Positions 7,033 through 64,000 of a stretch of 64,000 nucleotides of DNA are shown in pieces. Source of the stretch: Membranipora membranacea (taxonomy: Eukaryota; Bryozoa; Gymnolaemata; Cheilostomatida; Membraniporidae); the NCBI GenBank assembly GCA_914767715.1, contig OU612072.1, forward strand, positions 18,602,001 through 18,666,000. The letters are read 5' to 3'. Under the pieces are notes generated by a model. That model ran no database searches. It had not been told where the DNA came from and was given only the letters and a program-made list of their open reading frames with translations. Both the position numbers and the translations under genes were made by a program. Each line of letters opens with the position of its first letter. Position 1 is the stretch's first letter.

Positions 7033-7466
7033 CAAAGTACCGAGTTTAACCAGGTTGACCACTTTACAGTATGGGCATTTAGTAGGGATTATAATGACAG
7101 AAGCTACTCATATTATTGTTAGTATACCTCACAATTCCATTGATTCATTGTGTGATGCTTGATCAAAATGTTTTACATTAGAAAAGTTAATCAGGGGGCT
7201 GTGCTACCTTACTTACTTCTTAGAACCCCTACTTCCTTTCTTTTTATTGCATTACATTACATTAGCTCTTCCTTGATTAATTGCAAAGAAACTTTACAGC
7301 AACATTGGCGGTAAATCTGAGTTTGTAGAAAGAAAATGTTGCCCTATATTTTACCTTATAATCAATCTAAATTGAAAAATCGATGGTAACAAAACCTTTG
7401 AAAATTATTCATTGTCAGTGTTTTCCGCTGTACCCGAAGGATGTCATGTCAAACAAAGGATGTCAT

Positions 7467-7533
7467 GTTTTTTGTTCTGTCACTGCATGAAAAACATTCC
7501 TAAAGATGATGTAGAATGACAAAAGTATATATA
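7467..7533. repeat. Right member of the inverted repeat pair flanking the NHL-repeat gene
   Basis: This is the reverse complement of the block at 561-632, sharing TTTTTTGTTCTGTCACTGC and GATGATGTAGAATGACA. It lies 435 bp after the stop codon of the NHL-repeat gene. Between the stop and this block (7033-7466) nothing was recognised apart from a presumptive 3' UTR. Confidence 0.65.
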
Positions 7534-7859
7534 AACCGAATCAGGGTGGACAAGAGCCCTCGCATACCTATTGGTAAGCACCTGTCATCTCTATGGTCAG
7601 GTTCTGTTCCTATGGAATCAAATTTAATCCTGAGATATGTTTTGGCGGATTTCCTTGGCTGTCACTGTCGGTTTTTGATTAGTCTAAAGATGCTACACCT
7701 TTCAAATTTTAGCAAGCCTTTCTTTATGCCTATGAGACAATGCAACTTCCAAAGTAGGAAGAAAGGAGCTTAGTCATGTTTGGCGGTTAGATGAAGGATA
7801 GTGTGTGCTATTTCCATGTACTATTATTTGCACCGATAAAAAGATAGTAGTCACATCAA

Positions 7860-9405: not shown

Positions 9406-9678
9406 GATATTGTTTACTTCCTTAGTCAATGGCATCAAACTATTTTCTTCAGAAAATTGGCGCAGACATTGCAGCCTGGCCCTAGAAGCACCCCTACTTA
9501 ACTGTGACAATTGTGATTGAAATTGTGACAATTGTGGTTGATTGCGACAATTGTGATTGAAATTACGACAATCATGAAACGTACAACATTTTTGTTCATG
9601 ACATACCAGCAATTCCCCGGATGCGATTTTGTTTAACCAATGACATCCTCTCTCAATTTTTGTATTTTAAGATTAAAG

Positions 9679-9715
9679 GAGTTGCACCCTCTTTCTTTCA
9701 AAGAGGACAACTCCT
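9679..9715. repeat. Short imperfect hairpin (GGAGTTG arms)
   Basis: GGAGTTGCACCCTCTTT on the left is nearly the reverse complement of AAAGAGGACAACTCC on the right, with a 5-base loop. The arm motif GGAGTTGTCCTCT is also the outer arm of the palindromic element at 20074-20452, so this may be a minimal relative of that family. Confidence 0.5.
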
Positions 9716-9847
9716 TATGAATTAATTTTAAATGATGACACAATTGGCTCATGCTTTTAATTGCACTGCTAGGCAATTGATGCCAAAGGAGTTGTTAATA
9801 TGTAAATCAATCAATACCAACTGTGAATGAGTACATTAATCAACACT

Positions 9848-10714: not shown

Positions 10715-11680
10715 ATGAACTGCAACATATGTCAAAAAGGGATATGAGGAGGCAATAAAAAGGTGCTGAAATGCGGTACATGTCATATAAGATTCCACGC
10801 TACCTGTCTGGATGATTGGAAGGACATGACAGCAGACCAGCTCAAGGTTTTAACAATGCCTGGGGTATCATGGTACTGCTCGACATGCCTGCCCACACTA
10901 TCTCAGTACATCCATGCTCCTAATCTGGAAAAGAAACTGGATCATCACACCATGGAACTGCAAGCCATTAAAAGACTGGTGACTGAAAACATTCAGCAGA
11001 GCAGGGACTCTTTTGAGCAAACCAAAATCCAGTGCACTCTAGCTTCGAGGCACGGGGAAGCGGCAGCTCGAATTGGTACCAAGCTGGCTGAAGATATCAG
11101 GAACAAGCATGACATGGAGGAGGCCGCGGCGCGTAGGCGAAGTGCAATTTTGTACGGTGTGCAGGAAAGCCTCCACCTGGAGGAACACTTGCTCAATACT
11201 TCCGGCAAAATAAACTTCAAATACAGGTCGCTGCAGCAATCCTTCCGACTAGGTAATCCAAATCGATCTGTCAACCAAATGAGACCCAGACCAGTCAAGC
11301 TAGTATTTGTATCAGAGCTATCAAAGAACGAGTTCATGTCCAGTTACAATCGCTGGGGTGAACGCGGGACTACCTTTGCTAAGCCTGATCTCTCAAAAGA
11401 GCAGAGAGACATCGAATACAAACTTCGCCAAAAAAGGAATGAACTGAAAGCCAAGAACCCACACAAAAACTATAGGATCAGACTGGGTAAAATATGGGTG
11501 CAGTCAGGAGTAGACTGGTTCCCTGTGGATGAGGTTGAGAGGATGAGTGATCAAGGTTCCCATTCCCCTCGGCATCATCTCACTGGTTCGCCCCAGTTAC
11601 ATGCTGACAGGAGCCCTGGTTCTCTTCTCCACGGTAACTGGCCTGCACCTGGGGCTGCTGGCGTTAACACGGGGTGCTAG
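10715..11680 (+). pseudogene. LINE ORF1 with PHD-type zinc finger; one internal stop
   Basis: Reading from ATG 10715, the product starts MNCNICQKGI and meets TGA at 10745-10747. It then continues in frame to 11680, a total of about 321 residues. The Cys/His pattern C-x2-C, C-x2-C, H-x2-C, C-x2-C (last pair WYCSTC) is that of a PHD finger and spans the stop. A charged, probably coiled-coil stretch follows (around residues 70-140), then a region beginning RRSAILYGVQE that resembles the RNA-binding fold of LINE ORF1 proteins. The TGA may be a CGA-to-TGA mutation or a sequencing error. Known LINE ORF1 proteins bind element RNA. This ORF's stop overlaps the extended open frame of ORF2. Confidence 0.75.
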
Positions 11681-11726
11681 TCCTCTTCTGAGCTTAACAG
11701 ACCTAGCACAGAACAAAAAATCCAAT

Positions 11727-14438
11727 ATGGACTTAATCCAACCCAACAAGTCCCTCTCAGTTATGTCCTGGAATTGTAATAGCATCGCTGGAAAATCCCA
11801 TCATCTTGACTATATGATCCACCTGCATAAGCCTGACATCATAGCTCTAACTGAAACCAAGCTAAACCAAAATATTTGCGATTCAGAAATAATTTCTAAT
11901 TACACTGTGTACAGACGTGATAGATTTACAGGTCAGGGTGGTGGCGTTCTTATAGCGATATCAGACACATTAAACATTAAAGTTTTAGACTACTATGTAG
12001 ATACACAAAATGAAATAATCTCTCTTGAACTCGATTTTTGTGAATTCAGTTTTGTTATTGCTTGTTATTACAGACCACCTAATATTAAATCTGTCACGGA
12101 TATAATTCACTGGCACGAAAAACAATGTAGTCCCAATGTAATGGTAGTTGGGGATTTTAATCTGCCTGAAATCGATTGGGATTCTAAAACATTGAAATCA
12201 ACTCGGGATTCACATATGCATGGTATGTTCTTGGACTTTCTATGTATTAATGACCTGTCTCAGCTCGTTATAGAGCCCACCCACAAGCTAGGTAACATAC
12301 TCGATCTGGTCGTAACCAATATGGATATTTCAACCCCTGTAATTGATCTGAGCTCTTCCGATCATTCTACTGTTTTTGTTAATGTTAATATACCATTTGA
12401 AAATGTTCCATTAGACACCAGGATCTCCAAAACATATTATAAGTTTGAAGACGCAAACCTAGAGTCACTTACTACACAGTCACAGAATTTAGAGAATTTC
12501 ATTTCCTCGCAAATTCACAAAAATGAAATGATTGATACAGTCTGGAATACGTTCAAAACCATGTTTACCGAAATTACTAAATCTAATATCCCTAATTACC
12601 CAGTAAAGTGTCGCAAAAAGCATTGGATTACTAGGCGAACAATTACCCAAATTAACAAAAGAAAGCGAATGAAGAAAACTCTTAGGCGCCATTACTCCCT
12701 ATTTAATGCCCAAAAACTGGAAGACCAGAGCGATTACTGTAAAAAGCTTGTAAATGATGACTACAATGTTTACATAAATGTGCATATTTGTGATAAACTA
12801 GCTCAGGGAAACTCAAAACCTCTTTTCAAATTTATTGCAAGCAAAAAAGGCCAAAACAACACAATAAAATGTATTGAGAATTCTAAAAATGACCAGGACA
12901 TAGCTGAGAAATTTGTTGAGGCTTTTACTTCTGTGTTCACTTATGACGATGGCTTACTTCCTACCCTCCAGGCTACCTCTCATCAACAAGATAAACCCAT
13001 ATCAGTAACTGAACAAGGCGTGTTAAATTTACTTATTAGTTTGGATCCAACAAAAGGAGCCGGTCCAGATAATTTAGCACCTGCTCTATTGAAATTCATG
13101 GGACCTTACATTTATAAAATAATTACAGCAATTTTCAACTATTCTCTAGCCGAACAGTGCGTGCCCACAGACTGGAAGACAGCCAATGTCGTGCCTATCC
13201 ATAAAAAAGGTGCCAGAAATGTTGCTCTCAATTAAAGACCCATTTCTCTAACCTCAGTTCTGTGCAAAACCATGGAACATATTATAGCCCACAATATTCA
13301 TAGTTACTTAGATGAATATAATATCCTTTTTAAATATCAACATGGATTCAGGCCAGGACACGGATGTGACACTCAGTTACTTAATACCATATCCGACTTC
13401 ATAGACTCCTATGACTCCAATATTATAAGTGATCTCATCGTTCTTGATTTTTCGAAAGCCTTCGATGTTGTTTCACACACAAAGCTCATTCACAAACTAA
13501 AATCAATAGGTATTCACTCTCAGACAATAGGCTGGATCAAACACTGGTTGTCAAATCGCACTCATCAAGTGACAGTAAATGGTGTTACTTCAAACTCTCA
13601 TTTAGTTACTTCTGGTGTGCCTCAAGGTTCCGTCCTGGGGCCCCTGCTTTTTCTTATTGATATAAATGACATGCCTAACTCTGTTCTTAATTCCAAACTT
13701 AAATTATTTGCTGATGATTCTTTACTTTATAACAACATTAAATCTGACTCTGACATGCTTAATCTCCAACTCGATCTTGACAGTCTGGTGTCTTGGTCTG
13801 AATCCTGGCAAATGAAGTTTAATGCTGACAAGTGTGAAACAATGCGTATCAGTAGACCTAAGAATAATTCAAACTCGGACCCCTCGTACCATATTGGAAA
13901 TGCTAAACTGGCATCAGTAGAACAAATTAAATATTTAGGTTTTAATATTGATAATAAATTAACTTTTGATGCACACATTAAAGATATTTGCCGTAAAGCA
14001 TCGAATAACCTGCACATGCTCATGAGATCTCTGAAAAGAGCCAAAACTCGTACTAGACTTACAGCATATAAAAGCATATGCCGTCCTATTTTGGAGTATG
14101 CCACCATTGTATGGTCACCTCATAAACAGAAAATGATTAAACTGTTAGAGGCTGTAAACCGCAAGGCGTTTAGATGGTGTTTCAAAAAACGAAAATATGA
14201 CTTTATATCTCAACTTATGGACGAGGCGGAGTGGCATACTTTAAAAAGCAGACGTGAGATAACAGACATGAAAATGTATCATAAAATTATGTCAGGTTGT
14301 GTTAACATTGATGTAGATAGATTCAGTCTAAACCAAAGTTGCTACAACACCAGAAAAGGTGCCTATCACCACTCAATTCAAACCAATGTCCAGCGCTTCT
14401 CCTTTAAACACCGGATATTCAGGAAGCTTACGAACTAG
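11727..14438 (+). pseudogene. LINE ORF2: endonuclease and reverse transcriptase; one internal stop
   Basis: The frame is open from 11547; the first ATG after the ORF1 stop is 11727 and is used here. The endonuclease part has MSWNCNSI at the start, TETK, YYRPPN, GDFNLPEIDWD and SSSDHS, all conserved catalytic-core motifs of LINE apurinic-like endonucleases. The reverse transcriptase part has the RPISLTS block, GFRPGHGCDTQLL, LDFSKAFDVVSH, SGVPQGSVLGPLLF and LFADDSLLY, which is the active-site FADD form of YxDD. After it come the usual YLGF and thumb regions, ending QRFSFKHRIFRKLTN. The codon before RPISL is TAA (13233-13235) where the family normally has Tyr, so this is a single in-frame nonsense change. 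The rest is intact for about 900 residues. Confidence 0.85.
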
Positions 14439-19617: not shown

Positions 19618-21905
19618 TTAGGTGGATCTGATGTGAGTCCACATTTTTTGCAAAAGCCAGGCAGCTAAATCGACTGTTATTGAGAGAACAATACATGAGA
19701 TGCTATGTGTATCTCCATCATCTCCGTCATCATCAACATCAGCATCTTCATAGTCGTCGTGTTTATCTTCTTCCTCAGCCACTAAGACAAAAAAACAGCT
19801 TTGCTTGAATCAATCTCCAACAAAGGATCGATAGATTATTGTGTGCCATATTGTTCCAAACCCTGTGTATACATGGCTGTAAGTGGGTTATGTGTAACAT
19901 TTGCAATCTTAGAAGACTACAGGCAAAGAATGTATGCTAAAATCCTAAAAGTAAGACTTGGAAATCTACTACTGACGACGTTAATCCGCATCTTAGAGGC
20001 GGAGATTGAATGCACCTTGTAAACATAATCAATGTTACATATAATGCTGTTATTTTTCTAGGCTCTTATCTATGCCTCAATTTGGAGTTGTCCTCTCTCC
20101 AGTTTGGTACTTTTAACCAACGCCGCATAGGAAAAGCCTGCTGAAAGAGGGTTATATTGAAAACCGCTAATGTTAGGATAAAAATGATCTTAATTTTAGT
20201 GACGAAACTCATGAATGATTCTGCCAAATTGTCCGCAAAACAGGCGGAAAATGCTATAATTGACCACCGAAATACTAAAATTATTTCCCAAACTATGTCC
20301 ATATGAGTTTTCAATGTTGCAGATTCTGAATCGAAAATAATTTTTATCCTCTTATAAGCGGTTTTCAAGATAACCCTCTTTTCAGCACATTTTTCCTATG
20401 CGGCGTTGGTTAAAAGTACCAAACTGGAGAGAGGACAACTCCGAATTGAGGCCTAAATCGGAGCTCAGAAAACTGTCTATTGCCTATGTATTTAGTTTTT
20501 TTTTAAGTTGTTCATGATCAGCCTTTCTCACCTAATTTGAATAAGAAGATTCTCTCCAAACCTCCAACATAAAGCTTTTCTCCATCAACGAGTAGTGAGT
20601 AAGGCACAACTAGGGAGCAGTTAGATAGTCCACCTCCAACGCTCTGCCACACAGGCCACGCCCCTGAGCATATCGTCCAGCCGGTACCAGTATCTAACTC
20701 TAATATTCTGAGCTGGTGATACCAAGTGTCCGCGACCACCAGTACCTGATCGGACAGAATAGCGACTCCACTCGGATGATCAAACTCTATCTTAGACAGC
20801 TCGACTTTCCTCTGGTATGAGTATTGATATATCACTGAAGCAGACTTTGTTGTTGGTGATTTTAAAAGCTTTTCATTGTATAAAGATTTAAGAAATGGAG
20901 TTGAGGACGATCCAGCTATGAGAGTGACTGCCTTACTTTGATAGTCATATTTGGCAACACCATGTTCAAATGTAATGTAAAGGTCACCGGTTGTCTGATG
21001 TTGCGTAATACCGCGGAAATAATGCACATAGCTGAATTTTGATAACGTTTCTGTATATTTACTGCTGATCGCAACAGTCTTGAAAGCATTGTTTCCCCAG
21101 TCATAAATTATGAATTGGCTCAAGTTTTTAGCGTCCAAAATAATTGACAAAGGCCACTCAAACTTTGCGTCATAGCCATCTTGATCTCCATTTTTCATGC
21201 AGCTTCCTGCATAGGGATTAGTTCGCTGATTTAATCTATCGACAAGCCTCACACAGTGATTTCCATGGTCAATCACTATAAGCTGTGTTGGAGACAGGCT
21301 GGCAAACCCAGACACTTCTTCAAACCTCGCTGCTCTGCCGACCCCTTCAATGTATCCCATTTCTGTAGCAGAACCAGCGATCAGCTCCGTCGTCTTGCCG
21401 TTTGTGGTTTTGAGACAACTGTTATCAGCAAATATGATATTACTTGGGTTGAAAATATCTCGTTCTATGTGAGAGACGAATGTATCTGTATCAACAAAGG
21501 TAGTTCCCTCTCCCTGTGAGGATGAAAACACGCTGTGATGACTGACCACTTTCCTGATTTTAAATAAAAAAATATATACCTCTACCCTCTCCACTTTCAA
21601 AGAGTCCCCGTGACTGGCACCCTGATTGCATGCAGGACTGTGAATCATGCAGACTGTGTGCGTTCTGCAGCAGTGCAACAAAGAATTCTAATATTACATG
21701 TAAAGTATACCTACACATTTAGGATGTAAGACCCTGGTTCAAGGGAAATATTTAGTTTGAGAGTACGTCTTTAGACTGTTTGCAGCAAGTTTAATCGTGA
21801 AACAATCATTTGGCTGGATATTATGACACACAGACGATCTAATTACTGGACTCACCTCAATGCGAACACATTTATGACAACATTAGTTAACATCCACAGT
21901 ATAGC
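19618..21905 (-). CDS. NHL-repeat protein with signal peptide and acidic tail (4 exons)
   Basis: Exons on the minus strand: 21905-21856, 21664-21580, 21513-20532, 19781-19618. Splice sites are GT..AG and phases agree; the stop is TAA at 19620-19618. With the in-frame ATG at 21893 the product is 422 residues; an earlier exon is possible. The first exon gives a hydrophobic signal-like start (MLTNVVINVFALR). The third encodes the propeller, with NPSNIIFADN, AGSATEMGYIEG, VIDHGNHCVRLVD, FIIYDWGN and VVADTWY. These match the NHL repeats of the gene at 1789-7032, and the two exons end at equivalent phase-1 donors, so the genes are paralogues. The last exon differs: it has no cysteine modules but a run rich in Asp/Glu, then a hydrophobic stretch (SISCIVLSITVDLAAWLL) near the C terminus. 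That stretch could anchor the protein in a membrane. Confidence 0.75.
20074..20452. mobile_element. Palindromic miniature element inside the NHL gene intron
   Basis: The outer arms GCCTCAATTTGGAGTTGTCC and, in reverse complement from the right, GCCTCAATTCGGAGTTGTCC match over at least 100 bases, including CTCCAGTTTGGTACTTTTAA and GAAAACCGCT. The centre is about 170 bp of less paired sequence. The flanks read CTA..TA at the two ends, compatible with a TA target as used by Tc1/mariner-type elements, but this is weak. It lies in the third intron of the minus-strand NHL-repeat gene. The open frame across it is a by-product of the palindrome. Confidence 0.8.
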
Positions 21906-27022: not shown

Positions 27023-30000
27023 TTATGAAGTACTCAGTTTGATAAAAACAGGTTTGCTACTCCTGTCTACAGTATAGCTGAAGTTGGTAATGATCCTAAA
27101 CCCTGACTTGTCTCTAACTATCCCGGCTACATCAGTGAACAGGCTCACCAGTTCTACATAAAGTGATGGCTTATAATCAGGGTGCAAATTCTGTTCCTGA
27201 ATTAGCGAATCTAAGCCATTAGATGCTTGAGAGATTATTTGGGTCTTGGGTCGTACAACTTGTAGGTCCCTATCAGTCACTGACACAGAGTTTGCTGCTG
27301 TAGATAGAGAGGACACTGGATATGCGCTGCTGCTGGCTGCTTGAGCAGAATCCTGAGCGCTGCAGGATGAGGGTGTGGCATTCAGAAACAGCTTAATTTT
27401 CTCAGCTAGATGGTGTCTCATCTCTCGGAATGCTATGTTCTTCTGTGGGGATCTGAAGATGAGAGAAACGCAGTCATGAAAAACTATGTAAATACGACAA
27501 AGGTCGCAGGGCAGTGCAGCGGCTTATTTGTTGTATAAGCTGTGTTAAGAGCTCTTTAAATGAAAACCTTTTCAAGCAACGCAGCCAACTTCTAAAAATC
27601 CTCTTTGAAGTGATTGTGAAGGATTCAGGTTTTTTGTATCACTTTGGAGTTCTCAGTTTTGTTTAGAAAACTGTTATAAGGTTCATCAACAACATATGGC
27701 CCAGTTTCACCTCATTTTCACTCAATGTTGAGATGTGAAGGTACTAAGAAGGTACTATTTTTATGATAGTACATGTATATACAAAATAGTACCTTTGTAG
27801 TACCTTCCAATCTCAACTTTGAGTGAAAATGAGTTGAAACTGAGGCATATGTCGTTGATGAACCTTTAAACAGTTTTTAAATTAGACTGAGAACTCCAGA
27901 ATTATACAAAAAACCTGATTCCTTCACAATCACTTTAATAAAATGACAACGAGTGCAGCTATTATGGATTGCAGTTTCACGGTGCATCCATCCACGTCTA
28001 CTATTAGATACTGTTCAGTTTCAAAGGAGTGTATAACTTTCTGAGAAATAGCCAGCTATGAAATACTTGCTGAAAGTACCTTTGTCTTGTGAAAAAAAAT
28101 CTTTTGTAGCTTCTGAAATGAAGTTATCTACATACATCATTAACTATAATTCGGTTGTTGATTCAATTTATCTGACCATATATTTACAAAAACTCAACAT
28201 TTATATGAATTAATGGGGTCACCTAATGCTAGGGTTGATCGACTCACTTGTTAATCTGAAGAACAGTATACATCACATGACAGTCAGGAGGGATAACTAC
28301 GTCTGGCATGGGGTGACCTAAGTATTCCTCTCGTATCTTCTTTGGATTCAGCTTTTTCTTAGCAGGCTCAAAATCGTCTCGTATTCTGACTATTTCACCG
28401 ATCTCTTTTGTTTCTCGGCTATATGGGACCATGTTGTACACAGGAGGTATCCTTCCTCGGCAAAATGACAACATCATCAGCTGTGAATACAACACATGTA
28501 ACCATATAGACACTTTCTATGATACTGGATAATTCACCTAAGGCTGCTTTGTAGGGAAAATGTTTCATTGATTATTATTGTAGCCTAGCTCTTGAAGTCA
28601 TGGAGCAAGTCCAATCCAGCTGGTGGATATTTCCATCATTAAATTCTTGCACAGCTACCACTATTAAATATTAGCTAGGCCGCAGTATCTGCGCCAATTT
28701 GCTCTCTGTTTGCAGGCAGGTCGGAACACACCTGGGGCCAACCAAGCCCCAGTAGCCCCACTGCAGTGGGATTCGAACCCACGACCTTCAAACACTTGCA
28801 TGTTGAAGTCCGGCGCTCTAACCAACTGAGCCACCTCCTACTCCTACTGACTATGATATGCTATGGTCTTTGGGCAGTCTTTACAGCTGGACTACTACAG
28901 TGAGTAGACTCTCACATGGCGGGCTCTTTAAAGGTTCCCAAGCAGGGTTCACCATGCTAGACAAATCAGCAACACCATGTCGTGCGCGAGAGTCTTTTAC
29001 TTACCTGTTCAAACTTTCATTGCATTTGAACGAATAGGGGCCCCTTGGCAGCTGCTCAAATACACCAATGTCTAGCCGCAGCCTCAAAAACATGCCTCAG
29101 CTGTTGATGTAGGCTTGTGATGATGCGTGTTGTTTCCTCATGATTATATATACCATTCATACTTAGTTCCTATTGGCTTAAAACTAAGCATAAGTCATGA
29201 GTGTGACATTATGGCTTATCAATGCATATTAAAAACTGAGTTTTCCACTAAACTATGGTATTTTCAATATGACAGTTGATTTAATCCTCAACATACATGT
29301 CTGTATTCTCATTTCAAACTCACCAACACATTCTGGATAATGAAATAATCAAACGATATCTGATTTTGACCAGCCATTATACCTCAAAGGTCACATGACT
29401 TATGCTTAGTTATAAGCCAATAAGAGGAACTCAGTATGAATGGTATATGTAATCACGAGGAAACAACATGCATCATCATTAGCCATCATCAACTGAGGCA
29501 TGTTTTTGCAGCGGCTGATAGACATTGGTGTATTTGTGAAGCTGCCAAGGGCCCCTATTTGTTCAAATGCAATGAAAATTTAAACAGGTATGTAAAAGAC
29601 TCTCAGGCACAACATGGTGTTGCTGATTTGTCTTGTATGGAATCCGGAGACCTTTAAGATGTGGAGAAGGATATACCTGGGGCATGTTGGGTCAAGAGAT
29701 AAAAATCTGTTTGAACATGAGGTCACCCAGCTTAAAAGACCTTGACAAGCCTTTGAAAAGATCAAGTCACCTTGGGGATTCCTTGAAGTAACTCTGCACA
29801 AAAGCACTCCACAAGTTGTTGAACAGTTATTGGTTGATCATCCACACCAGATATGTCACCATCACCCTCTGAATCTCCGTGAGCCATCACAACCAGAGCC
29901 ACGATCTGTGAGTCTCCAGCACTAGACACAAACTTCTCTATACCTTCTATTATAGATGTAGATGAGAAGTTGAACTCAGAGGTCACCTACAATCAAAGAT

Positions 30001-33000
30001 CAAGTTGAATTTTAAAAAAGGATCAAGAGAATTGTATTGACATGGGGTGCTGTTGAACACTTACCGATGGTTGCATACCAAAAAAAACTCAATATTTTAT
30101 TTGATTTTTCCGGTTCATGATTCATCTGTTTGGAATCTGATATGCTTCTACGCACCACAACCCCTCGCCAACAAATGGTTTCCCGAACTAGCAGAGTTGG
30201 TCAATGATTTAATGGGGTAAACTACAGACTATGATCCATGGAAATGAGATAGAAGCGGGGATATATTATGGATATACATGAAATATTGATCAATTGATAT
30301 AATTCTATGATGTAGCTGCAAATACTCACTGCAAGGCCAAGCTGGTTTTGTAATATATGCAATGCGTCCTCGTATTGAATTTTCCAATCGGGTCGACCTT
30401 TCATATTACATAATATCAGAGCTTTCCCTGCACTCCTCCTATTGATGATGTGACTGCCGGGGCTTGGTGAATTTTGGCGCTGAATATCATCCAGTGTAGT
30501 ATTAGGTAGGTGTTTCCCAAGTGTAGAATTGATGGAGACACTGAGTACCCCTTCGCTTTTACATGTGTCAGTGATGTAGGTGCCAAGTTGATGTGTTGGA
30601 AGAAGTTCCTGCATCCACCTAAAACGCAAAACTATAGCTTAAATCAGTATCACTTGAAGCCAGCAGCAGTAGACCTACACATCAAATACTCTATGCATGT
30701 TTTGTAAAGCTGCAATTAGCAAGCACTTTCAATCATGACAGGCTTTTGGTGTGTTTGGACCATAACAAGTAGTGAATTATTCTTTCTGTACTCAAGTGAC
30801 TGTTTTGTTTGCGGATCTTGCTGCACATCAATGATTATGAAGTCTGGTCCTGGTGGACTGATGTTCTTCCTTTTGCCAGTTCTTCTTCTGATTACAACCT
30901 GAAAACATAAACCATGTGTTTGAAGTTTGAATTAAAAAAGACGGCTCTCATTGGGCCAGGAGTGCATGATAATCTCAGTAGTGAGATTGAGGCGGCTCAC
31001 TGTACAGATAAGCAAACAACGGTTTGAGGCATTCCAAGATTTATAGAGTGGTGGTTTCTCATCAGATAGAACAGCTGCCTGCATTCACTTTAAGACCTGT
31101 ATGTTAGGAGCACAACTGGCAGTTAGATATGAGGATAACAAAATCAATGATTCAACTGAAATGGCGTACCTTGGGTTGACCCTGGTTCTCGGGCATATCC
31201 ATTTTCCAGAGTGCATACATGATGTGTCCATCGTCGAGTTGTCCATCTTCGATAAGTAAATAACCCAGCGTCTGATTCTGTGTGTTAGAAAAGATTTACA
31301 ACATCGAAAAACTTAAGATTGAGACTGAGAAGACCCAACATAATGTGATTGTATCTCTGAAACATTGTGATACGATTCAGTGGCAGTATTGACTTGGTGT
31401 CAGAAACCATTTTTGAAATAATTCCATCATGTAGCAAGAAAAGGAATCAAGCCGTAAAAAAAAGTGCAATCAAACCACAGATTCATAAGAACTACCAACA
31501 CAGGAACATCTCTAGTTGGAGCTTTATTTATTTGGTCAATTACTGATAATAATACACGCACATACCTTTTCATGTTTAATGTGCCCAAAGGAGGCAGATG
31601 CTTGGTTAAATGCGGTCGATGCTTGATCAAGCAGGGAATATTTCAAGGTGCTATGCATGGCCACAGCCAGCATCTGAGGTTTTCGAATGAAATAAACTTC
31701 TCCATCACCAATACACCTGGCCAATAAGTAGTAGTGATAGCTATAGACAGTCGGATCAATGTCTTTTAAGAGGCATAAGCCCAAAGTCATAGCTTCAGCT
31801 TGTCCTGAGCAATTGGCGAGCTTGTGTACGACGGACACTGGATTGACTCCGTCCACGTTTCTTTGCGTGAGCATAAACCTTCTTCTCTCGAGCGGAATCT
31901 CCATCAGCAAGGTGGCAAACATGGCTACCTCACCTAAGATAGCTGCATAATGCAGTGGGCTATTGCCAAACATATCTCTGACAAGTATCTTCTCCACTTG
32001 CACTTCGTTAAGACAATCCCTGATCAAAGTCATATAGTTTTCAGGATCTATCTCGCCAGCAGCTAAATGGAAAGCGTTTTGTTGCATGTTGTTTCGGTGT
32101 TCAAGCTGTAGTTGCATGTCAGAACCAGCATGTTCAAAGTATTGAAACATAAATTTAACCACGCTAACTGACCCAGAGCTGATAGCGTACATCAAGGGTG
32201 TATTTCCGTTACGATCCGGCATGTTTATCATTACTTCGCTGACAGTTCTTGATGGTTGGTCTGTGGGAAGGATAGTTTTTGGGGTAAAAGCTGATGTTTT
32301 GAGATCGAAAGGCATATCTTGTCCGAGTGAAAACAAATATGTCGCTACACCATCATCAAATCGTGTCTTACAAGCCGTGTGCAACGCTGTTCCCCCATTT
32401 TCATCTAGAGCCAAGATGAATAATTCATGCTGTCCAATATGGATTGATTCCAACAGAAATTTAGCATGGTCTATTGTACAAGCTATGTGCAGTGCTGTCC
32501 CTCGTCTATTACCAGGCAACTTTATTAAGCGTTCTCTATCAGCAACATTGGCAAGCATAAACTTCATTAACAGTACTCCGTTCCCAGTATTATCACTAGC
32601 TTTGTGGAGCGCAGTCTCGCCCCAGTCATTAAGAGTAAAAATAAACTCTTCTTGTCTTGTTTTTCCTACTGCATCAACAAGGATTTGAGCTGTTTCCATG
32701 TTAGAAGCACGGTGAAGGGCCGTACCGCTAGTGCATAGAGAAGTCATATGTTCCCGTTGATGGCATACTGTGAATAATAAGGCTTCAATGTCAATGTCTA
32801 ATGAAAGGAGGTGACTAACTATCCTGCAATCCCCTGAACTTGCAGCGCTGTGTAAAAGTGTTTTCCCCTATGTTATTTGTGGCAAAAACCATATCGCTAT
32901 GTGACCAAAGAAGTGCATCGTTTTCATTGCATGGGTTGTCGGAAATTATGACTTCACCCGTTTTACTGTCTGCTTTCAACGGCAGCAAATAACTTACTAC

Positions 33001-36000
33001 TGAAAAGTTCCTCTCTCTGCATGCGATGTGTAAAGCGGTGTCGCCATCTTCATCGCCAATTAAAAGCAATGACTTTCTTAGCTTCGGCGGAGTAGCCAGA
33101 ATGAGCAAAGCCATCACATCTCTGTCTTTGGCCTCATGTAAAGCTGTACCGTTTTCATTTGTGTAGAAAAGAAGCTGTGAATCAAATTGATCATCAGATA
33201 CAATGCATTGAATGACATCTTTCTTCCCCTCTTTGCTGGCGCTGTGAAGTGCAGTCCCACCATGGGCATCAAGGGTACTCAGAAACCCACATTTGTTTGG
33301 TTCTGTAACAGTTGATAATAATAGTGTTGCCATTTCAGCATGCGCAGCCACATGAAGAGCGGTACCAACACCCATGCGACTCTCCTCGCGACTACATTTT
33401 AGGAGCATATTGTCACAAACAAGACCTAGCGAGACGAAATACTTCATGATGTTCATCATTCCACCTTGAGAGGCAAGATGGAGGACAGTACTACCATACG
33501 AGTTAGCCATTTCAAAAAGTCTTTGCCCTAAAGGTGGCATTCGCTTGGGATGAGCTCCACCATGTTCTTTAAGTTGTGGTAAAGTTGCATTCAGCAAAAA
33601 CTCCACAATATCTAGCCTCTGTGCTCTAACTGCAGCGTGCAGGGCTGTATTACCAAATTTATCACATGCAAAGAGAAGTTCTTCCCGGTTCACACGGCTG
33701 ACATTATCCAGAAGAAGTTGTGCTAGCTCTCGACCTCGCGCATCATGTAACGCAGTGCCATAATCTCCGCATGACAGGATGAGTCTGTCCGTATCGACGG
33801 ATAAATCCAGCAAAAGTGCAGCGAGCTCAATGTTGTCTTTTTGGCAGGCATAATGAAGAACAGAGTGACAATAGCCGTTGACTGGAGTGTGAGTGAAGAG
33901 TCTATCCCATATTTGATGGGCAACAATCTTGGCTCCATGAGTCTCCAGAAAGTTGAATAAAGTTTCTTGACTTTTCAGAAAGTAGTCTAGTATCACATCT
34001 TTCTATGGAATGAAAGAGGTACGTTAGGAAAATCATGATTTTGACCTCGAAACAGCAGATAATGGCTGTGTTATGTTGGGTAAGTTTGCCCGTATATTAT
34101 GTTGCTCTTATTCTACTTGTAATTTGCAAGCAAAATTGATTAATAACTGAATCTACTTAGTCGGATTGCTCGCTACCCTGAGGCCTGAATACAAAAAAAT
34201 TGTGAAATATTGAGATTTTCAGAACACTTGAAGGAAAGGAATAAGAGAAATAATACGGATTATTGTGTAACATGGTTGTGACGGGACATTATGACATTAT
34301 AGGGGGGGGGGGGGGGGCGCAGAGAAGAAAAGACCATGCAATTTTTTATATGCGACCATTTGGTCTGGTAGGCAGGGAAACTAAGATTGAGACAACCAGC
34401 AAAGTTATTCACAGGCCTCTCATTATTGGATCGAAATTCATTATACATTTAAAACAATCAATCACCCATCCATCCATCATCTCATAGGAGAACTTACTTG
34501 AACAGGACATCAAATTCTTAATATTTCTTTCCAAAGTCTTATATCAGTGTCCTAGACAATGCCTGGGTAATCAATCTTGGTGATTCAAAAGGTTTGTTTT
34601 CCCATACAAAGAATTGACAGACAACCCAAGTAAAGACAAAAGCAAAATTTGCACAAGAATTTGTGTTTAAAGCACTGAATTAGATTCTTCTCTTAGAATG
34701 GAAATAGTATCATAGCGTTATATGGTTAGGACACTAAACACAGGGACCCATCTGACTGTTATCTGATTGGCTGTCCCTAGTAGCATGAATAATTAGCCTG
34801 AGAAATTGTCTTGTTTACAAAATTGCAAACAGTAATTATACCCCATACAGTGTCGATGATTAGGGCATTTCTAGATTGCTACTAGGGACTGGCTATTTTT
34901 GCAAGCCCTTTGTTTTGCAAAAGAAAGCTAATGATGCTATTCCAGATATGGAATTCAATGGTTTAAAGGTATAACCATAGACCAGTGGCGTATATTAGCA
35001 CTCACGCCCGCGGATTTTTGTGAGTGGCTGAATAGCTCAGTGTGTAGAGCGTCCGCCTAGTAATCATTGTTAATAAATTTGTTGTGGGTTTGAATCCCAT
35101 CAAGGTCAGTTTTTTTTTCAAATGGGTGCTTTATAACTGGAGCATTTTTACCGTAATCTTCTACTGCTATTGAGTTGTTTTCTGAAAGTACCCAACAGCT
35201 CAGTGAGCTATTGAAATACCTCTCTGCTTGCACTATTTTGCTACCGATATGCAAAAATTTCCGTGGTGGGAGGGCGATTAAGCGCCCCTCCCACACCCTC
35301 CCCGCCACGCCTACGGATCGGGCTGCGCCCGATTATTATGCTCATCTCTGAAAAGTCAGTGAGTGAAATTTTTTAGAATATACGCCCCTGCCATAGACCT
35401 AATATACTCCCTAGACAGGACAATGCTTATGCTTCACTGATCAGAATATGTCCCACTTAAAAAGCACGACATGACGTAATTAGTTTGTGCAGTGAGTCAT
35501 AGTTTACTATATATCCATCAATGAAATAATGTGAAAAATCAAGGGACGCTGGGCATGATATCAGCCCCTGTCCAGCCCCTTATTATTCAAACACAAAGAA
35601 AATTGGTGAGTGTATGAAAAAGACCTTTCCGCACGATATGGTGTTAATAATTTTTCCCCAGATCCAGAACTGTTTTTATGATAAGATACAATCATTAGCC
35701 AATAAACTTTGAAATAAATACAGCCATTTACCCTCAGCACTTCCATCACTACTAAAAACATGTAAAGAATACCTATAACACAATATCACAAATATTTTGT
35801 TGGATGAGCCAGATCTAATCACCACCACCATCATCTTTTTTTCTTCAAAATTATTCCTAGCTGTGACTGAACACAACCAGTCTGCTCAAATCGGATTGCT
35901 AATTTTATTGTCGCGTCACCAGGAAGAAAATATATTTGCTGTTAAATGAGTATGCAAACTACAGATAGCCGTTGTTCCTGAGTATGTATGATGAAGCTAG

Positions 36001-38350
36001 AGTATGTTACGATAACTTGAAATTATTATATGGTTGTCAGAATCTAATGGCCTTCACAGTGGCCAAACTTAATTTTGCCGATGCGATGCCGGTAAGGTTC
36101 TTGAGTTTATCAATGTGATGACGGCGTCATCAGTGAATGTCAATTGCTTCCTTGACCCACACACAGAAACAGCAGTGTGAAAAAAAGTAGTCAGTACAAC
36201 AGAACGCGTCATTATCTGAGAAAATGGAACTACATGTAACGATGAAACTACAGAGGAAAAAGGACGGAAGCAGTGACCCTAATAAATTCCAAAACTGGAA
36301 GACAAATGCCGGCCAAATGATCACCAGCATTCTTGCTTGACTCGGCCGAGAGTTGCGTGCTCATATGCATCACAGCTTCTCACAAGCACAAACCTCCGCA
36401 GCCGGCAATAAATTTTTGTTGGTGTCAGCTGAGGTTTAGTCTTAATAATGGCTATTAGTATACAACCCAGTCTAGGCCACAAAATAACGTATCTGAACCC
36501 TTTATTTAGACAGCCAGAGAAGTTTTTGAATTAATGAGCAGCAACAATCCCAATGACTAAAAAATTCATCTGTAAGGAGACATTGTCAATTAAACAGAAA
36601 TCACTGTTTAGTGTGCTGCAGTATCTTGAGAAGTATAGAGATGTCTGCATGGCTCCGCCTTGATAGAAGCTGAAATAGTTGTTATGAGAATTATTAACTA
36701 TTGAATAAAAATAATGTAAATGTAACAATGAGAATAATAATAATGATAATTACAGGAATTGTAATTTACAAATACTACTCGAATTGACATTCACTGTTGA
36801 CGCCGATATCACCTTGATAAACTCAAAAACTCAAAAGGCCTTACCGTCATTGGCAAAATTAAGTTTTGCCACGGTATTTCATTTTCCTGTAGTTGGAGAT
36901 TATTATTAGAGTCACTGCTTCCATCCTTTTTCCTCTGTAGGTTTTCATCATTACATGTAGTTCCATTTTCTAAGATGATGATGTGTTATGGTTTGCTTTA
37001 TTATAACAATCATCGTATCAACAGGCGATAAGATTGGAGTGGTACATGAAAATGAACATTTTAAATTCTATTGTGAGCTGACATGTAGTATGAAAAAAGC
37101 TTTGTAAACGTTTTCTTGTCCTGCACTTTGGTGGGCGATAGATGGTATGCAGGTGAGAGGATATCTTTGCACAGTTAAAAACAACACGACTAAAAAGAGG
37201 ATGGTCTTCATTATTAGCAGTTTTGTTAAAAACACAGTTTTAGACATCTCAGTAATAACTTCGTTTTTTCACACTGCTGTTTCTGTGTATAGGTCGGGAA
37301 AGCAATTGACATTAACTGTTGACGCCAATATCACATCGATAAACTCAAAGAACCTTACCGGCATTGGCAAAATTAAGTTTGGCCACGGTAAAGGCCTTTA
37401 GATTCAGACTACAGTACCAAAGTATAATAATTTTAAGTTATTGTAACATACCCTTGCTTCATCATACATACTCAGGAACAACAGCTATCTGTAGTTTGCA
37501 TGCTCATTTAACAGCAAATATCAATTCTTCCTGGTGAGGCGACAATAAAATTAGCAATCCGATTTGAGCAGACTGGTTGTGTTCAGTCACAACTAGGAAT
37601 AATTTTAAAGAAAAAAATGATGATGGTCGTGGTGCTCGTGCTTAAACCTGGCTCATCCAAAAAAAATATTTATGATCTTGTGTTACAGGTATTCTTTACA
37701 TTTTTATAGAAGTGATGGAAGTGCTGAGGGTAAATGGCTGTATTTATTTCAATATTTATTGGCTGATGACTGTCTCTTATTATAAAAAGGTCAGGTTCTG
37801 GAGACAATTAATGAATACTATCTTGTGCGGAAAGGTCTTTTACAAACACTCACCAATTTTCTTTGTGTTTGAATAATAAGGGGCTGGACAGGGGCTGATA
37901 TCATGCCCAGCGTCCTTTGATTGTTCACATTATTTCATTGATGGATATATAGTAAACTTTGACTCACTGCACAAACAAATTACGTCATGTCCCGCTATTT
38001 AAGTGGGACAGTATTGAATGCTATTAGCCTGTCTAGGTTGTATATTAAGTCTATGGGTATAACATAATTGTTTGTACTTTCCGTAGAGTTTAAAGGTATA
38101 TTATTGATCTGGTGCTGCCCAGTCCAATAAGAAAAAGGATATTACATAGGCCTACATTTAGTACAGATTCTTTCACATCTTGAATGCCCACCTTTGTCTT
38201 GTCAAGATCTTTCCATTTTGTGCTAGCCTGAGTTGAAGTCGAAGACTTTTCCGTCGAGATGGCTCCGTATTCAGCAAGTATTTCAATCAACTCCTCACCC
38301 GGTGATGCAATTTTGGTGTAGTCCTTGTCGGAGCTCACTTTTGGACCCAT
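27023..38350 (-). CDS. Ankyrin-repeat protein with C-terminal caspase-like domain (8 exons)
   Basis: Minus-strand exons: A 38350-38192, B 34002-31566, C 31277-31170, D 30898-30792, E 30618-30330, F 29986-29771, G 28480-28248, H 27452-27023 (stop TAA). All phases join. Exon B encodes about 16 ankyrin units (TALHxA/PLHYA cores); one extra A in the run at 32861-32864 shifts its frame. The exon is 2437 nt, one base over a multiple of three, and dropping that base gives about 1325 residues. Exons E-H form a caspase fold. E has the first strand (GKALILCN) and LGLA. F has VVMAHG with the catalytic His (codon 29881-29879). G has LSFCRG with the catalytic Cys (codon 28462-28460), where caspases have QACxG. 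H has a p10-like end (RIITNFSYT). The His-Cys spacing is 43, against 42 in caspase-3. A cysteine protease or pseudo-enzyme with an ankyrin interaction platform is inferred. Exon A is less certain; a second in-phase donor lies shortly downstream of the one used. Confidence 0.8.
27608..27935. mobile_element. Foldback element in the last intron of the ankyrin-caspase gene
   Basis: The left arm starts AAGTGATTGTGAAGGA and the right arm ends as its near reverse complement (TCCTTCACAATCACTT). Arms of about 150 bp each pair almost throughout, including TTTTGTATxA, GGTTCATCAACAACATATG and TCATTTTCACTCAA. The hairpin tip contains nested GGTACTA repeats. No target-site duplication was recognised. It lies between exons G and H. 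Confidence 0.85.
28670..28843 (-). mobile_element. tRNA-derived SINE-like element
   Basis: Reading the minus strand, GGTGGCTCAGTTGGTTAGAG is an A box and D-arm, and GTGGGTTCGAATCCCAC is a perfect T-arm with B box. The spacing between them is that of a tRNA. The acceptor stem does not pair (GGAGGTG against TGCAGTG) and the anticodon region is extended, so it is not a working tRNA. The sequence that follows in the same direction (GGCCCCAGGTG...GACCTGCC) would be the SINE body. The right end of the body is unclear. It sits in the intron between exons F and G of the ankyrin-caspase gene. Confidence 0.65.
28929..29662. mobile_element. Foldback element, about 730 bp, in an ankyrin-caspase intron
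   Basis: The arms of about 330 bp read outward as TTTAAAGGT...GACAAATCAGCAACACCATGT on the left and, in reverse complement, the same series on the right. Paired blocks include GGGGCCCCTTGGCAGCT, CACCAATGTCTA, AAACATGCCTCAG, GTTGTTTCCTC and TACCATTCATACT. The loop, roughly 29220-29390, is unpaired. No coding capacity was recognised. It lies between exons F and G. Confidence 0.85.
34976..38055. mobile_element. Large foldback element with CATAGAC termini, nested in an intron
   Basis: The left end CATAGACCTAATATAC and right end GTATATTAAGTCTATG are inverted repeats, flanked by an exact 8-bp duplication GGTATAAC (34968-34975 and 38056-38063). Long arms pair from the ends inward: the left arm is about 35391-36320, and the right arm runs from 38055 down to about 37250. 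A second inverted pairing joins 36200-36290 with 36895-36990. A motif of about 100 bp (GACGCC...GATAAACTCAA...CTTACCG) occurs three times, inverted at 36050 and direct at 36790 and 37310. Without the hAT miniature element inserted in it, the element is 2664 bp. No transposase was recognised. It fills most of the first intron of the ankyrin-caspase gene. Confidence 0.88.
34983..35390. mobile_element. hAT-type miniature element with tRNA-like block (copy 2), nested
   Basis: It has the same termini as the 22106 copy (CAGTGGCGTATATT..AATATACGCCCCTG), flanked by an exact 8-bp duplication CCATAGAC (34975-34982 and 35391-35398). That target is the terminal motif of the surrounding foldback element, so this copy jumped into the foldback after the latter was in place. 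Internal order and tRNA-like block (35026-35109) match copy 1. It has an extra segment of about 20 bp near 35121 and lacks a few bases elsewhere. Confidence 0.9.
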
Positions 38351-39509: not shown

Positions 39510-39838
39510 CACTACAAAATAAAGTACAGTTGTAAAATACCCTTTACAAGTGGTTCCTGCATATTGTAGCATAGGGTGGATTGTGTATACCCACAAATGA
39601 GTGTAGCAAAAGTGGAGAACTGAGGCTAGCATACACGTTCCCCAGCCATTGATCACACACACCCAATATGCATTCAGACAAGCAAACTTTGCCTGCCATT
39701 GTACTCCTTTGTTCACCAAACAAAAGGCCTTTTGTTAAACAACTCTCATAGGTGTCTTGGGACATGTCTCCCAGACATCGGCCCCCAGGGGCCAGGGCCT
39801 ACATACTACAGCATAAGTAGACTTTATTTTGTAATGTC
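39510..39838. mobile_element. Inverted-repeat miniature element, copy 2
   Basis: It has the same interior as copy 1 and ends (T)CCACTACAAAATAAAGT and ACTTTATTTTGTAATGTCC. The close tandem arrangement suggests one insertion near the other or a local duplication. It is followed directly by a LINE relic. Confidence 0.8.
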
Positions 39839-39925
39839 CCGTTCAGCACCTGCATCACACGACGGTCTCAGAACATCCTAGCGTTTCATTGGGCTACAAA
39901 CTTAAAATATGTCTTAGCATGGGAC

Positions 39926-40810
39926 ACGGAACTGGACTTGTTCTGTATAAACTGGATTGAGGAATGGCTCCATCGACAAAGCTCTGTGGTCTCAGTGAAT
40001 GGACTCCTCTCAAAGGAGTTCCATGTGAAGTCTGGGGTTCCACAGGGCTCCGTTCTTGGGCCTCTTCTCTTTATACTGTACGTAAATGATAACTCAGAGG
40101 ATATTAAAAACAGTGACTGTCGATTATATGCAGACGATACCATCCTAAGCTCTGCCTCTGATCCAAATCTAATTCAGGATGACATAAATAAATTATATAT
40201 CTGGGCAGGGAAATGGGGAATGAAGTTCAACAACCTTTAATGCTGTCATCTCCAATTTGGATCAGAAATCCCCACCCATACTTTTTTCTGGGATATGAAC
40301 CGATTCCAGCTTCCGTCTCTGTTAAATATCTAGGTGTGCATATTGATTACAACCTAAAATGGAACACACATATATCTAAGGTAGCTGCCAAAGCAAACAG
40401 GTCACTTGGAATGGTAAAAAGACACTTGAAACAGGCCCAAAGAAAACAAAGCTCATTGCTTTCAAGACCATGGTGAAACCCATTTTAGAATATGCATGCC
40501 TAGTGTGGTTGCCACACACAGCAGGTCTTACAAATACCATTGAGAAGGTTCAAAACAATGCCCTCCGATGGATTTACAGGTTAAATAAAACTGATAGCAT
40601 AACTGAATGCCGTAACTTAAATAACATTGAATCTCTAGCTGATAGGGGAGCGGAGTTAGACACCCTCTTCCTACGCAAAGTGGAGGCAGGGCTATTTGAA
40701 ATAAAATTGAATAAATGCATAAGGTTCTCATCCAAAACACGCAACACTAGCAGGCAACACCATAAGCTGGGTCCATCGTACCAATGCATGGAAATTTTCG
40801 TACTTTAATC
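39926..40810 (+). pseudogene. LINE reverse transcriptase 3' fragment with frameshifts
   Basis: Frame pieces show SGVPQGSVLGPLLFILYVND and LYADDTILSS (catalytic YADD intact) with WGMKFN. After a shift come VKYLGVHIDYNLKWNTHISK and, after another shift, KPILEYACLVWLPHT with RWIYRLN. This is the C-terminal half of a CR1/Jockey-like ORF2. At least two frameshifts make it non-functional. The 3' region to about 41150 may be its untranslated tail, ending near a short AAGT repeat at 41133-41147. Confidence 0.85.
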
Positions 40811-61695: not shown

Positions 61696-64000
61696 TCATG
61701 ACTGGCGCAACACCGTTGCTACTGTCAGCTCTTTCTTTCTTTCTTTGAGATAAGTCTTGTACTTGGTAACAGACTCTACTTCGAACAGCTGTATCCGGAT
61801 TGCCTCGTGGCTAGATAGTGATTTCCCAACCATTTCTAAAACATGAATACTTTATTCAAGTGCATAAGACAATGAAAATTCCTCCGGGTTTTTCTCATAT
61901 TTTGTCTATTTAATAATCAATGGAACATGACAAAACTCTGATTTTCGTCATAGGAATTGGGAACACATAGTCTAAAATTCCTTTCGACGTCCTTCATATA
62001 AAATAACAGGCGTCACTTGTGGAATCATAGGGCAAGTTTTACACATATGCCACTCAACGGAATGTTTCCATTCTCCGTCAGTCATTTAACTCATGCGCCA
62101 AAATGGACTCACCTTTGAAGACAATTCTTGTTTTCCTGTTATCAGGTAGCACAGGTTTAGTGAGCGAGTCAGGATGATCTGCTGTTCTCATATTCACTCC
62201 TGGTGATAGATACAGTTTCCTGCCATTGGTCAATGTACTGATTGTTACTGGCAGCTGACCTTTACCTTGTTCAGTTGCTCGCTCTCTTACAACAGACTGG
62301 ATCTAGAAAGATAACATACCAAAATATGTGTGCCTTTGCCATGTTATCATTTTATGCTGTATCTTGGATGATGATACAAATATGACACAGCAGGAAGGTA
62401 AAGCATATCTCTTACTTGATAACGAGGATGGCTTTGAAATCAAGATGATGATCCCATTTGTTATTGAGCTTATGCCTCAAATTTTTAAGTCACCATATAT
62501 TACATTGAAGACAAAAGCCCATAAACTTCCCAGACATCCGAAATACTCTCATCATTTGATTAGAACAGCAGTGTCATGACCCCTACTTTGTGCCATCTGA
62601 CTTGGCATTGGATCTCTCCAACCCTCAAACCAATCTGAGCTGACACATTGGCTAAGAAACCATCAATAAATTAAACCCCCTAATATCAACAGATTCAATA
62701 CCCACAATCTGCGTCTGAAATTTGCACACCATGTAAAAGCTCAAAAGAAGACAGCCGAGGAGAGAAGTTCAAGATCAAACATGACCACTGAAACTAATAC
62801 ATGTGGCGGAAGCTTCCAATTTAAAGTACATAACAATTTATAATATATTACTGTTTCGCCTAGCTGCACCACATGACTGTTTCCTGCACGTTTGTAAAAT
62901 GTTGCTATTAAAGCTCTGATGAATACTGATCCATATTTCTTGCGACGGTAGGCAGCATAGTCTGCAATATTAGCACAAAAGCACACATAGAATAAAAATT
63001 AAATTTCACTCAGAGATTTTAAGCTCCGCTAGCATAAGTACTTTGGGACCGGTTCATCTTTTGTATAGAAATTATGACCAGGAACTGCATTTGTATAGGT
63101 AAGTTTAGCCCAGCAAATCGGCAGGTGAATATAAGGAAGGAAATAGATTCATCCGGGCCTTCCAACCCCAAGGGGACTGGGGCAATTGTGTATCCTCCCC
63201 TAAGGGGACTGGGGAAATTGTGTATCCACCCGACAAGAATTGAACCCACAAGACTAGCAAAGTTACAGTGTTATAAGGAGGAAGCAAACGGTTAAAGGTG
63301 AATAACTTATCACAGGTAAGACCTTACCATCAAAGGATGCTTTGAATATAATAAGATCATCCAGAGATAGACGACTTTCATCATTGTAAGGCAATACTGT
63401 TGTCAGTGAAGGTGTATCTGGAGCAGCAACTGGTCTCAATATCTCGTCAATACCTGTGGTTTTATGTAAAGATATCATGCGCCAATGATAAATTGCTGTA
63501 ATCAGTATAGGGACTGTTTAAAGAACTAGGCGTTTGGCAAGTATAATACGATAAGCTTGACTAGGAAAGGGGGCTGTGGTGCCAAATTGGACTGTGTAAT
63601 CAGATATTGCATGTCTAACTACTCTAGGTTATGTCTGCGGGAGTCATGGCCTGAGCTGGGAACCTTTCGTTTCTCCTGACATTTCTCATTATTTTTTGTT
63701 CACACGTAATAATAAAAGAAGTTAACACTCCGGGATAATTATATTGCATATTGGGCTCTATGACGCTTCGCGTGAACACTGACACGCATAAGAAGCGTGG
63801 AGTACAGTCGCGTCAAACATCACACCTTGATTTTGTATTTGTGGCTCTGTCTTGTTCTGTTCTGTTGTCGCACCTGGCAACCCTTGGCTCTGTCCTACAG
63901 CAGTGCTGGAATCGGATGACTCTCTCTCCATTCTATTCACTACAATGTCAGAATAAAATGACATGTTGGGGGAGCAAGACAAATCCCTTCTCATCATATG
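61696..64000 (-). CDS. Caspase, C-terminal (p10) part; 5' end beyond window
   Basis: Minus-strand exons: from the window edge to 63826, then 63453-63328, 62961-62852, 62302-62113, 61835-61696 (stop TGA). Phases join at every GT..AG junction. The edge exon and the next encode the linker between large and small subunits, rich in Ser, Gln and Glu. The p10 core follows: LIIFKASFDDYAAYRRKKYG, SVFIRALIATFYKR, then VVRERATEQGKGQLPVTIST and KLYLSPG. This matches the small-subunit pattern of executioner caspases: a substrate-loop tyrosine and arginine in YAAYR, GSxFI, VxRxxxxxxGK.Q.P...STL and xKLYL. The catalytic His and QACxG Cys belong to the large subunit and lie off the right edge. After KLYLSPG comes an unusual extra tail of about 80 residues, ending in a Lys/Glu-rich helix (KTYLKERKKEL). 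Confidence 0.88.
63095..63290 (-). mobile_element. tRNA-derived SINE-like relic in a caspase intron
   Basis: On the minus strand TGTGGGTTCAATTCTTGT resembles a T-arm with B box. It is followed by two copies of a 30-base unit (GATACACAATT(T/G)CCCCAGT). The A box is weak. The arrangement is that of a tRNA-derived SINE whose body begins with a short tandem duplication. It lies between the second and third caspase exons listed above. Confidence 0.5.

Follow-up and report, generated by a model that had tools for sequence, protein, structure and literature searches.

Caspases that carry a CARD or a DED are recruited through these domains to separate sensors. A gene of the bryozoan Membranipora membranacea seems to carry a long array of ankyrin repeats in their place. 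This raises the question whether ankyrin repeats and a caspase domain are joined here in a single protein and, if so, what kind of caspase such a protein might be. The gene lies in a stretch of 64,000 nucleotides (C8:18602001-18666000), referred to as the window. The genome searched comprises 339,339,785 bases in 18 pieces.

Organization of the ankyrin-caspase gene

In our gene model, eight exons on the minus strand (38350-27023) encode a spliced protein of 1322 residues (Table 1). Exon A contributes 53 residues, exon B the ankyrin array, exons C and D together with the start of exon E a linker, and exons E to H the caspase. The introns are GT-AG, with one weak donor at exon D, and the junction phases agree throughout, provided that a one-base slip in exon B is allowed for. 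An earlier note, made from the sequence alone, had described a large exon with about 16 ankyrin units followed by six exons in consistent phase that end in a caspase fold. Both points were borne out: the phases of exons C to H agree, the caspase is matched by profile, and exon B holds 16 units. A motif scan returned 17 T-x-L-H-like matches, of which the one at residue 750 was dropped as spurious, and Ank_2 matched the spliced protein, scanned as two overlapping pieces, with an E value of 1.4e-54. The earlier note had overlooked that, owing to the slip near 32865, the ankyrin exon of the window copy is not a single open frame.

The Pfam search of the spliced protein that had been proposed as a check found both the ankyrin families and PF00656 (Peptidase_C14), and no other family above the Pfam cut-off in the two pieces scanned. 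Pfam detected neither a CARD nor a DED, in agreement with the proposal that an ankyrin array stands in place of such a prodomain. Also absent by Pfam were the NACHT or NB-ARC NTPase of NLR/STAND proteins, the Roc-COR tandem of ROCO proteins, and LRRs. Residues 1-55 match a nearly identical twin copy at C8:18578542-18578706 (95%). The N-terminus encoded by exon A is the least certain part of the gene, because the matches listed in the genome search include none to exon A in the diverged paralogs. The introns contain inverted repeats of 65-230 bases that resemble small mobile elements (35449-38010, 28952-29640 and 27605-27938).

Table 1. Features of the ankyrin-caspase gene and of its right-hand neighbour, in window coordinates.
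Feature	Position	Strand	Basis
Exon A, residues 1-53 with the proposed start codon	38192..38350	-	open frame, donor GTGGGC, phase 0
Exon B, 16 ankyrin units	31566..34002	-	Pfam Ank_2 1.6e-43 and 2.1e-26 in its two frames; twin exon open
One-base slip within a brief G/A run where two frames overlap, in this copy only	32815..32867	-	two overlapping frames; twin without slip
Exon C, linker	31170..31277	-	phase 0, GT-AG; identical in twin; present in shorter form in broken copy L011
Exon D, linker, weak donor GTCACT	30801..30898	-	twin has same donor; L011 has same bases after donor
Exon E, last part of linker, then first caspase strand and its L1 loop (ALILCNMKGRPDW)	30330..30618	-	gene model, Pfam, alignment of four members
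Exon F, caspase large subunit, catalytic His1066 (MAHGD; codon 29881-29879)	29771..29986	-	PF00656 8.7e-5, 22.7 bits, frame alone
Exon G, catalytic Cys1109 (LSFCRG; codon 28462-28460), linker between the subunits and first strand of the small subunit	28248..28480	-	gene model, alignments
Exon H, remaining small subunit, insert of about 85 residues, stop codon	27023..27452	-	gene model, alignment
Neighbour, separate LRR-Roc-type gene, 3' end of caspase match	63806..64000	-	PF00656 C8:18665806-18666249, E 6.4e-7

The caspase domain and its active site

PF00656 matched the window protein with 44.4 bits (E 2.1e-11; cut-off 21.4) over profile positions 2-211 of 233, corresponding to window residues of about 998-1292. 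His1066 and Cys1109 lie 43 residues apart, which confirms the spacing that the earlier note had read from the MAHG and SFCRG motifs. We aligned four spliced caspase parts, from the window gene, a paralog on C6 and two paralogs on C8; splicing of the paralogs was modelled on the window phases and the observed borders, with some junction residues guessed. All four match PF00656, and the three paralogs are 37-39% identical to the window gene in this part. Three features are invariant in all four members: the AHGD motif, LSFCRG, and an Arg of the L1 loop, which follows the first strand and is short. As judged from these sequences the family looks catalytic, and the invariant dyad favours a protease over a pseudo-enzyme.

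The L1-loop Arg is a candidate for the large-subunit Arg of the S1 pocket, a putative equivalence given that known caspases have a longer loop there. The small-subunit loop reads SPR, SPR and SLR in the three paralogs. Set against the SWRR of L001, a caspase-like gene described below, the Arg of these loops presumably sits at the caspase pocket-Arg position. In the window gene and its twin the loop is SPQK and this candidate Arg is absent. Its loss lowers the support for an Asp-specific caspase in the window pair, not for membership in the domain family. The pair may have an altered specificity or a weaker activity. Of the two readings that the earlier note left standing, cysteine protease and pseudo-enzyme, the dyad favours a protease for the family as a whole, and an altered or weak enzyme is possible in the window pair.

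Searched alone against PDB, the window sequence gave 6 matches at E up to 1 (best 0.0035), four of them caspases and two phosphoglycerate kinases. A profile of the four members gave 51 sequences at the same threshold, and 47 were caspases, including the first 45. The best match was an ancestral caspase-6 (2.2e-7), and CED-3 (1.3e-6) and caspase-2 (2.7e-6) were among the others. The matches run mainly over the large subunit, and His and Cys of the profile align with those of the PDB caspases in the three alignments shown by the search. The window protein differs from the aligned PDB caspases in the active-site motif (LSFCRG versus ACRG), in a shorter loop after the first strand and in a small-subunit insert.

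The same arrangement recurs in the genome

A genome search with the caspase part of the window gene returned 57 matching places at E up to 0.1, which were grouped by hand into 20 loci. In the corresponding search with the ankyrin part, 52 of 186 candidates were scored, with at least 131 matches. An ankyrin match lies upstream on the same strand at no fewer than 14 of the 20 caspase loci, namely the window gene, its twin, a broken copy (L011) and 11 diverged loci on C3, C4 (three), C5, C6, C8 (two), C9 (two) and C11. The ankyrin and caspase matches are separated by 0.3 kb in the window gene and the twin, by 0.7 kb in the broken copy and by 0.4-4.0 kb at the 11 diverged loci, where the frame that holds the ankyrin match is open over 518-882 aa and free of internal stops. 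The ankyrin exon on C6, read directly, is open over 572 residues and matches Ank_2 at 7.8e-35. Caspase support consists of a single weak exon match at each of two of the 14 loci (C4:30728430, E 0.02; C5:13882743, E 2e-4). With 52 of 186 ankyrin candidates scored, six caspase loci had no ankyrin match (C8:5401989, C8:5130798, C6:25408597, C2:15471673, C4:22800067 and C1:20168030, the last with a caspase E of 0.04).

Because 11 diverged loci and two duplicates keep the order of the parts, a chance origin of the arrangement is very unlikely. The combination of ankyrin and caspase parts that had been noticed at this one locus is a conserved architecture of many loci. Long frames on C7, C10 and C1, distant from all 20 caspase loci, hold many further ankyrin matches, so the genome contains ordinary ankyrin genes too. 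Numerous ankyrin frames of great length, open for as many as 2345 residues, cluster in the first 3.2 Mb of one chromosome (C7:32010-3195150).

The broken copy L011 (C8:18597821-18600628) lies beside the window and has kept the end of exon B, followed in order by exons C, D and E; neither L011 nor the following 26 kb gave a match to exons F-H. Its alignment to the window gene contains one stop each in B, C and D and several indels; dN/dS is 0.38 over the compared parts, with a very uneven dS (0.77 in B, 0.18 in E). The exon order indicates that a single duplication carried the ankyrin and caspase exons together.

A distant ankyrin-caspase, L021 (C4:11391001-11401000; features 6415-9811), was found by neither the caspase-part nor the ankyrin-part search. 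Its ankyrin array is partly degenerate (Ank_3 9e-5 in one frame). In the frame 8519-9109 a tail that by eye is ankyrin-like, and was not scored by Pfam, runs directly into the caspase (7.4e-9). A later exon carries QAC at the catalytic Cys, the small-subunit loop is AYRN, and the intron position just before the catalytic-Cys exon is common to L021 and the window gene. A one-base slip, here within an A run, affects the ankyrin exon of L021 too. Run over the sampled caspase loci, a model built from the ankyrin units of the window gene matched nothing beyond the window, L011, L021 (weakly) and one weak place in L012. Under a looser ankyrin motif, 11 scanned loci yielded three matches (L014, L020 and L029), discarded because by eye they do not resemble ankyrin.

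The frame slip and the twin copy

As assembled, exon B measures 2437 nt, one base beyond whole codons. Its open frame shifts near 32865, inside an ankyrin unit, with one frame ending at 32815 and the next starting at 32867. The twin, whose exons C-H lie 61 kb away at C8:18567663-18571940, was found in the search with the caspase part and is 98.7% identical to the window gene across 7.3 kb. The ankyrin exons of the two copies differ by 8 substitutions and one 1-base gap in 2443 aligned positions, and that of the twin is open. Exons C-H of the twin are 98-100% identical to those of the window gene and have the same splice borders; its exons B-H translate to 1269 residues with the final stop only. 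In the search itself, four of the six caspase matches of the twin had 95-100% identity. The other two (82 and 84%) are low because the matches run beyond the exons, and the window's own rows there reach 81 and 89%. The coding sequences of the two copies differ by 19 substitutions, 7 silent and 12 replacing (pN/pS 0.49, from small numbers).

The slip is confined to the window copy, and the twin is the open representative of the pair. The window copy may represent a null allele, a pseudogene of very recent origin or a fault of the assembly. Errors such as one-base slips should be rare in the type of assembly used here. It was built from 66-fold HiFi and 173-fold 10X reads, according to the part of the genome report consulted (PMC10290214). 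A short intron at the slip, with a good donor (GTAAGT) and an acceptor nearby, was considered and rejected: splicing there would cost an ankyrin unit its second helix and loop, and the twin reads through the site without interruption. Programmed frameshifting is also unlikely, given that the slip of L021 lies at a different site, the twin has none and the frames at the 11 diverged loci are open.

Other caspase genes of the genome

A search of the genome with PF00656 gave at least 145 matches (140 scored of 515 candidates), to be read as matches and not as genes; the same search found nothing in the control genomes (0 of 14). We picked 22 regions of 10 kb around such matches by hand (L009, L013 and L014-L033) and ran Pfam on a selection of long frames taken from 18 of them. 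A Roc match lies upstream on the same strand in 10 of the 22 (E 1.5e-4 or better), three of these matches (L009, L024 and L033) being under Pfam's cut-off. Ankyrin repeats occur in a single region, L021. At least two sensor-like architectures of caspases occur in this genome, the ankyrin-caspases being one. The LRR-Roc-caspases share with the window gene a repeat-bearing, sensor-like part upstream of the caspase; they differ in their Roc and LRR domains, which Pfam did not find in the window protein. One such gene (L009:2306-6182, minus strand) straddles the right end of the window and lies mostly beyond it; its caspase frame scores 2.8e-9, with Roc (7e-6) upstream.

At L033:5809-7893 (plus strand) an LRR-Roc frame is split by an in-frame stop at 6736-6738, possibly in a broken copy. 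L001:1282-2334 (plus strand) encodes a one-exon caspase-like protein (PF00656 8.9e-38) in which SSTG replaces the catalytic Cys motif and the small-subunit loop is SWRR; it is likely a pseudo-caspase. A prokaryotic origin was considered and set aside: a family-alignment scan of the genome contig collection matched 90 stretches, and none was confirmed. A search of a phage collection came back empty, a result that carries no weight either way.

Discussion

In this study, we identified a family of ankyrin-caspase loci in a bryozoan. The explanation of the window gene to which we give a somewhat better than even chance is that it is one gene, a recent copy in the ankyrin-caspase family of Membranipora membranacea, and encodes a one-piece sensor-caspase that is switched on by ankyrin-driven proximity. 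In such a protein the ankyrin solenoid would replace the CARD or DED prodomain as the part for recognition and recruitment. Binding of a ligand or target protein by the ankyrin array would bring two caspase domains together, and their proximity would switch the protease on, as dimerization does for initiator caspases. The active protease might then cleave itself and downstream substrates, leading to cell death or an immune response. Initiator caspases are described as monomers that are activated by dimerization and possess a basic S1 pocket (PMC12052993, in part). The growth in copy number, the near-identical twin and the decaying duplicate fit a fast-turning sensor repertoire, and a link of the ankyrin-caspases to immunity is a guess from this copy number and turnover. 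The immune or stress sensing proposed in the earlier note is likewise conjecture.

Other explanations have to be weighed against a one-piece sensor-caspase. It is highly improbable that two adjacent genes, one for ankyrin repeats and one for a caspase, were wrongly joined by the gene model. The linker exons C and D are indeed short and the donor of exon D is weak, but order and strand are the same at 14 of the 20 loci, with gaps of 0.4-4.0 kb where the loci have diverged, the end of exon B travels together with exons C to E in L011, and in L021 an ankyrin-like tail, as judged by eye, and the caspase share one open frame. The chances are much closer to even, though still short of it, that the window copy itself is dead or null, a recent duplicate newly disabled by the frame slip. 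The twin lacks the slip, the third copy next door is clearly broken, and errors are expected to be rare in a HiFi and 10X assembly of this depth. Against this stand the single lesion in about 4 kb of coding sequence and exons C-H, which are otherwise open and as similar to the twin as described, and the location of the slip, a short run at which the assembly may have gone wrong.

The window pair could also encode a cFLIP-like pseudo-protease or decoy that kept the fold and lost caspase specificity. SPQK in place of SPR or SLR points in this direction, as does L001, another caspase-like gene of this genome without the catalytic Cys, but His and Cys are intact in the window gene and pN/pS between window and twin is below one on few changes, and we regard this as unlikely. 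Only slightly more weight falls on a protease of development or tissue turnover, such as the regular regression of bryozoan polypides, to which the ankyrin repeats would give a fixed substrate or location instead of a role in sensing microbes. Ankyrin repeats bind many partners, and nothing in our data favours immunity; however, 14 ankyrin-linked loci that include a twin and a decaying copy resemble a sensor repertoire and not a single-purpose enzyme.

With the animal initiator caspases (CED-3, caspase-2, -8 and -9; C14) the predicted one-piece sensor-caspase shares the domain by profile, the His-Cys dyad, the order of large and small subunit and an N-terminal interaction part, which is a long ankyrin array in the window gene and a CARD or DED in the initiator caspases. 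Caspases with a non-enzymatic prodomain have been described with CARD or DED (PMC12052993). In fungi, ANK, WD40 or TPR repeats are fused to S8 or CHAT proteases in sensors that control gasdermins, according to the part of PMC12881547 consulted. These sensors would be a parallel in function. As presented there, they likewise join a protease directly to superstructure-forming repeats in one polypeptide; they differ in that the protease is an S8 serine or a caspase-like CHAT protease and the genes are often clustered with gasdermin (PMC12881547). Among the metazoan TRADD-N/Death-like proteins, ankyrin repeats and caspase are both variable C-terminal modules of one repertoire. There, as far as the consulted part of the source goes, ankyrin or caspase follows a Death-like/TRADD-N unit (PMC8195603), which Pfam did not find in the window protein.

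Among the best-ranked open-licence papers, searched by titles and the starts of abstracts, we found no ankyrin-caspase in an animal and no dedicated study of bryozoan caspases, and no open-licence paper on caspases of Membranipora came up. The word 'ankyrin' is absent from a study of bivalve caspases (PMC7836458) and from a caspase review (PMC12052993), and the consulted parts of PMC8195603, PMC6337361, PMC11378527 and PMC13326412 describe no animal ankyrin-caspase. 

It is tempting to speculate further that bryozoans built one-piece sensor-caspases at large scale, as ankyrin-caspases and LRR-Roc-caspases, with recognition and protease in one chain and no death-fold adaptor. This tentative idea, to which we give somewhat less than an even chance, is based on 14 ankyrin-caspase loci, one of them broken, and on 10 LRR-Roc-caspases in 22 regions. 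If true, such large-scale sensor-caspases would be an animal parallel to the fungal repeat-protease sensors, with a possible use in the recognition of pathogens or of colony self and non-self. A conserved family with ankyrin array and caspase in one chain suggests that an animal lineage shortened the caspase pathway to one protein, and makes bryozoans a place to look for unusual cell-death architectures. The idea of a shortened pathway is testable with the twin, by asking whether a ligand of the ankyrin array suffices to activate a caspase.

Other elements in the window

The window also contains a LINE-like element on the plus strand (10748-14438) with PHD-like, endonuclease and reverse transcriptase frames, and a second LINE-like fragment, similar by eye, near 39821-40808. 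NHL-repeat frames lie at 2370-3335 on the plus strand (5.1e-7) and at 20518-21687 on the minus strand (2.7e-7), and are possibly interrelated.
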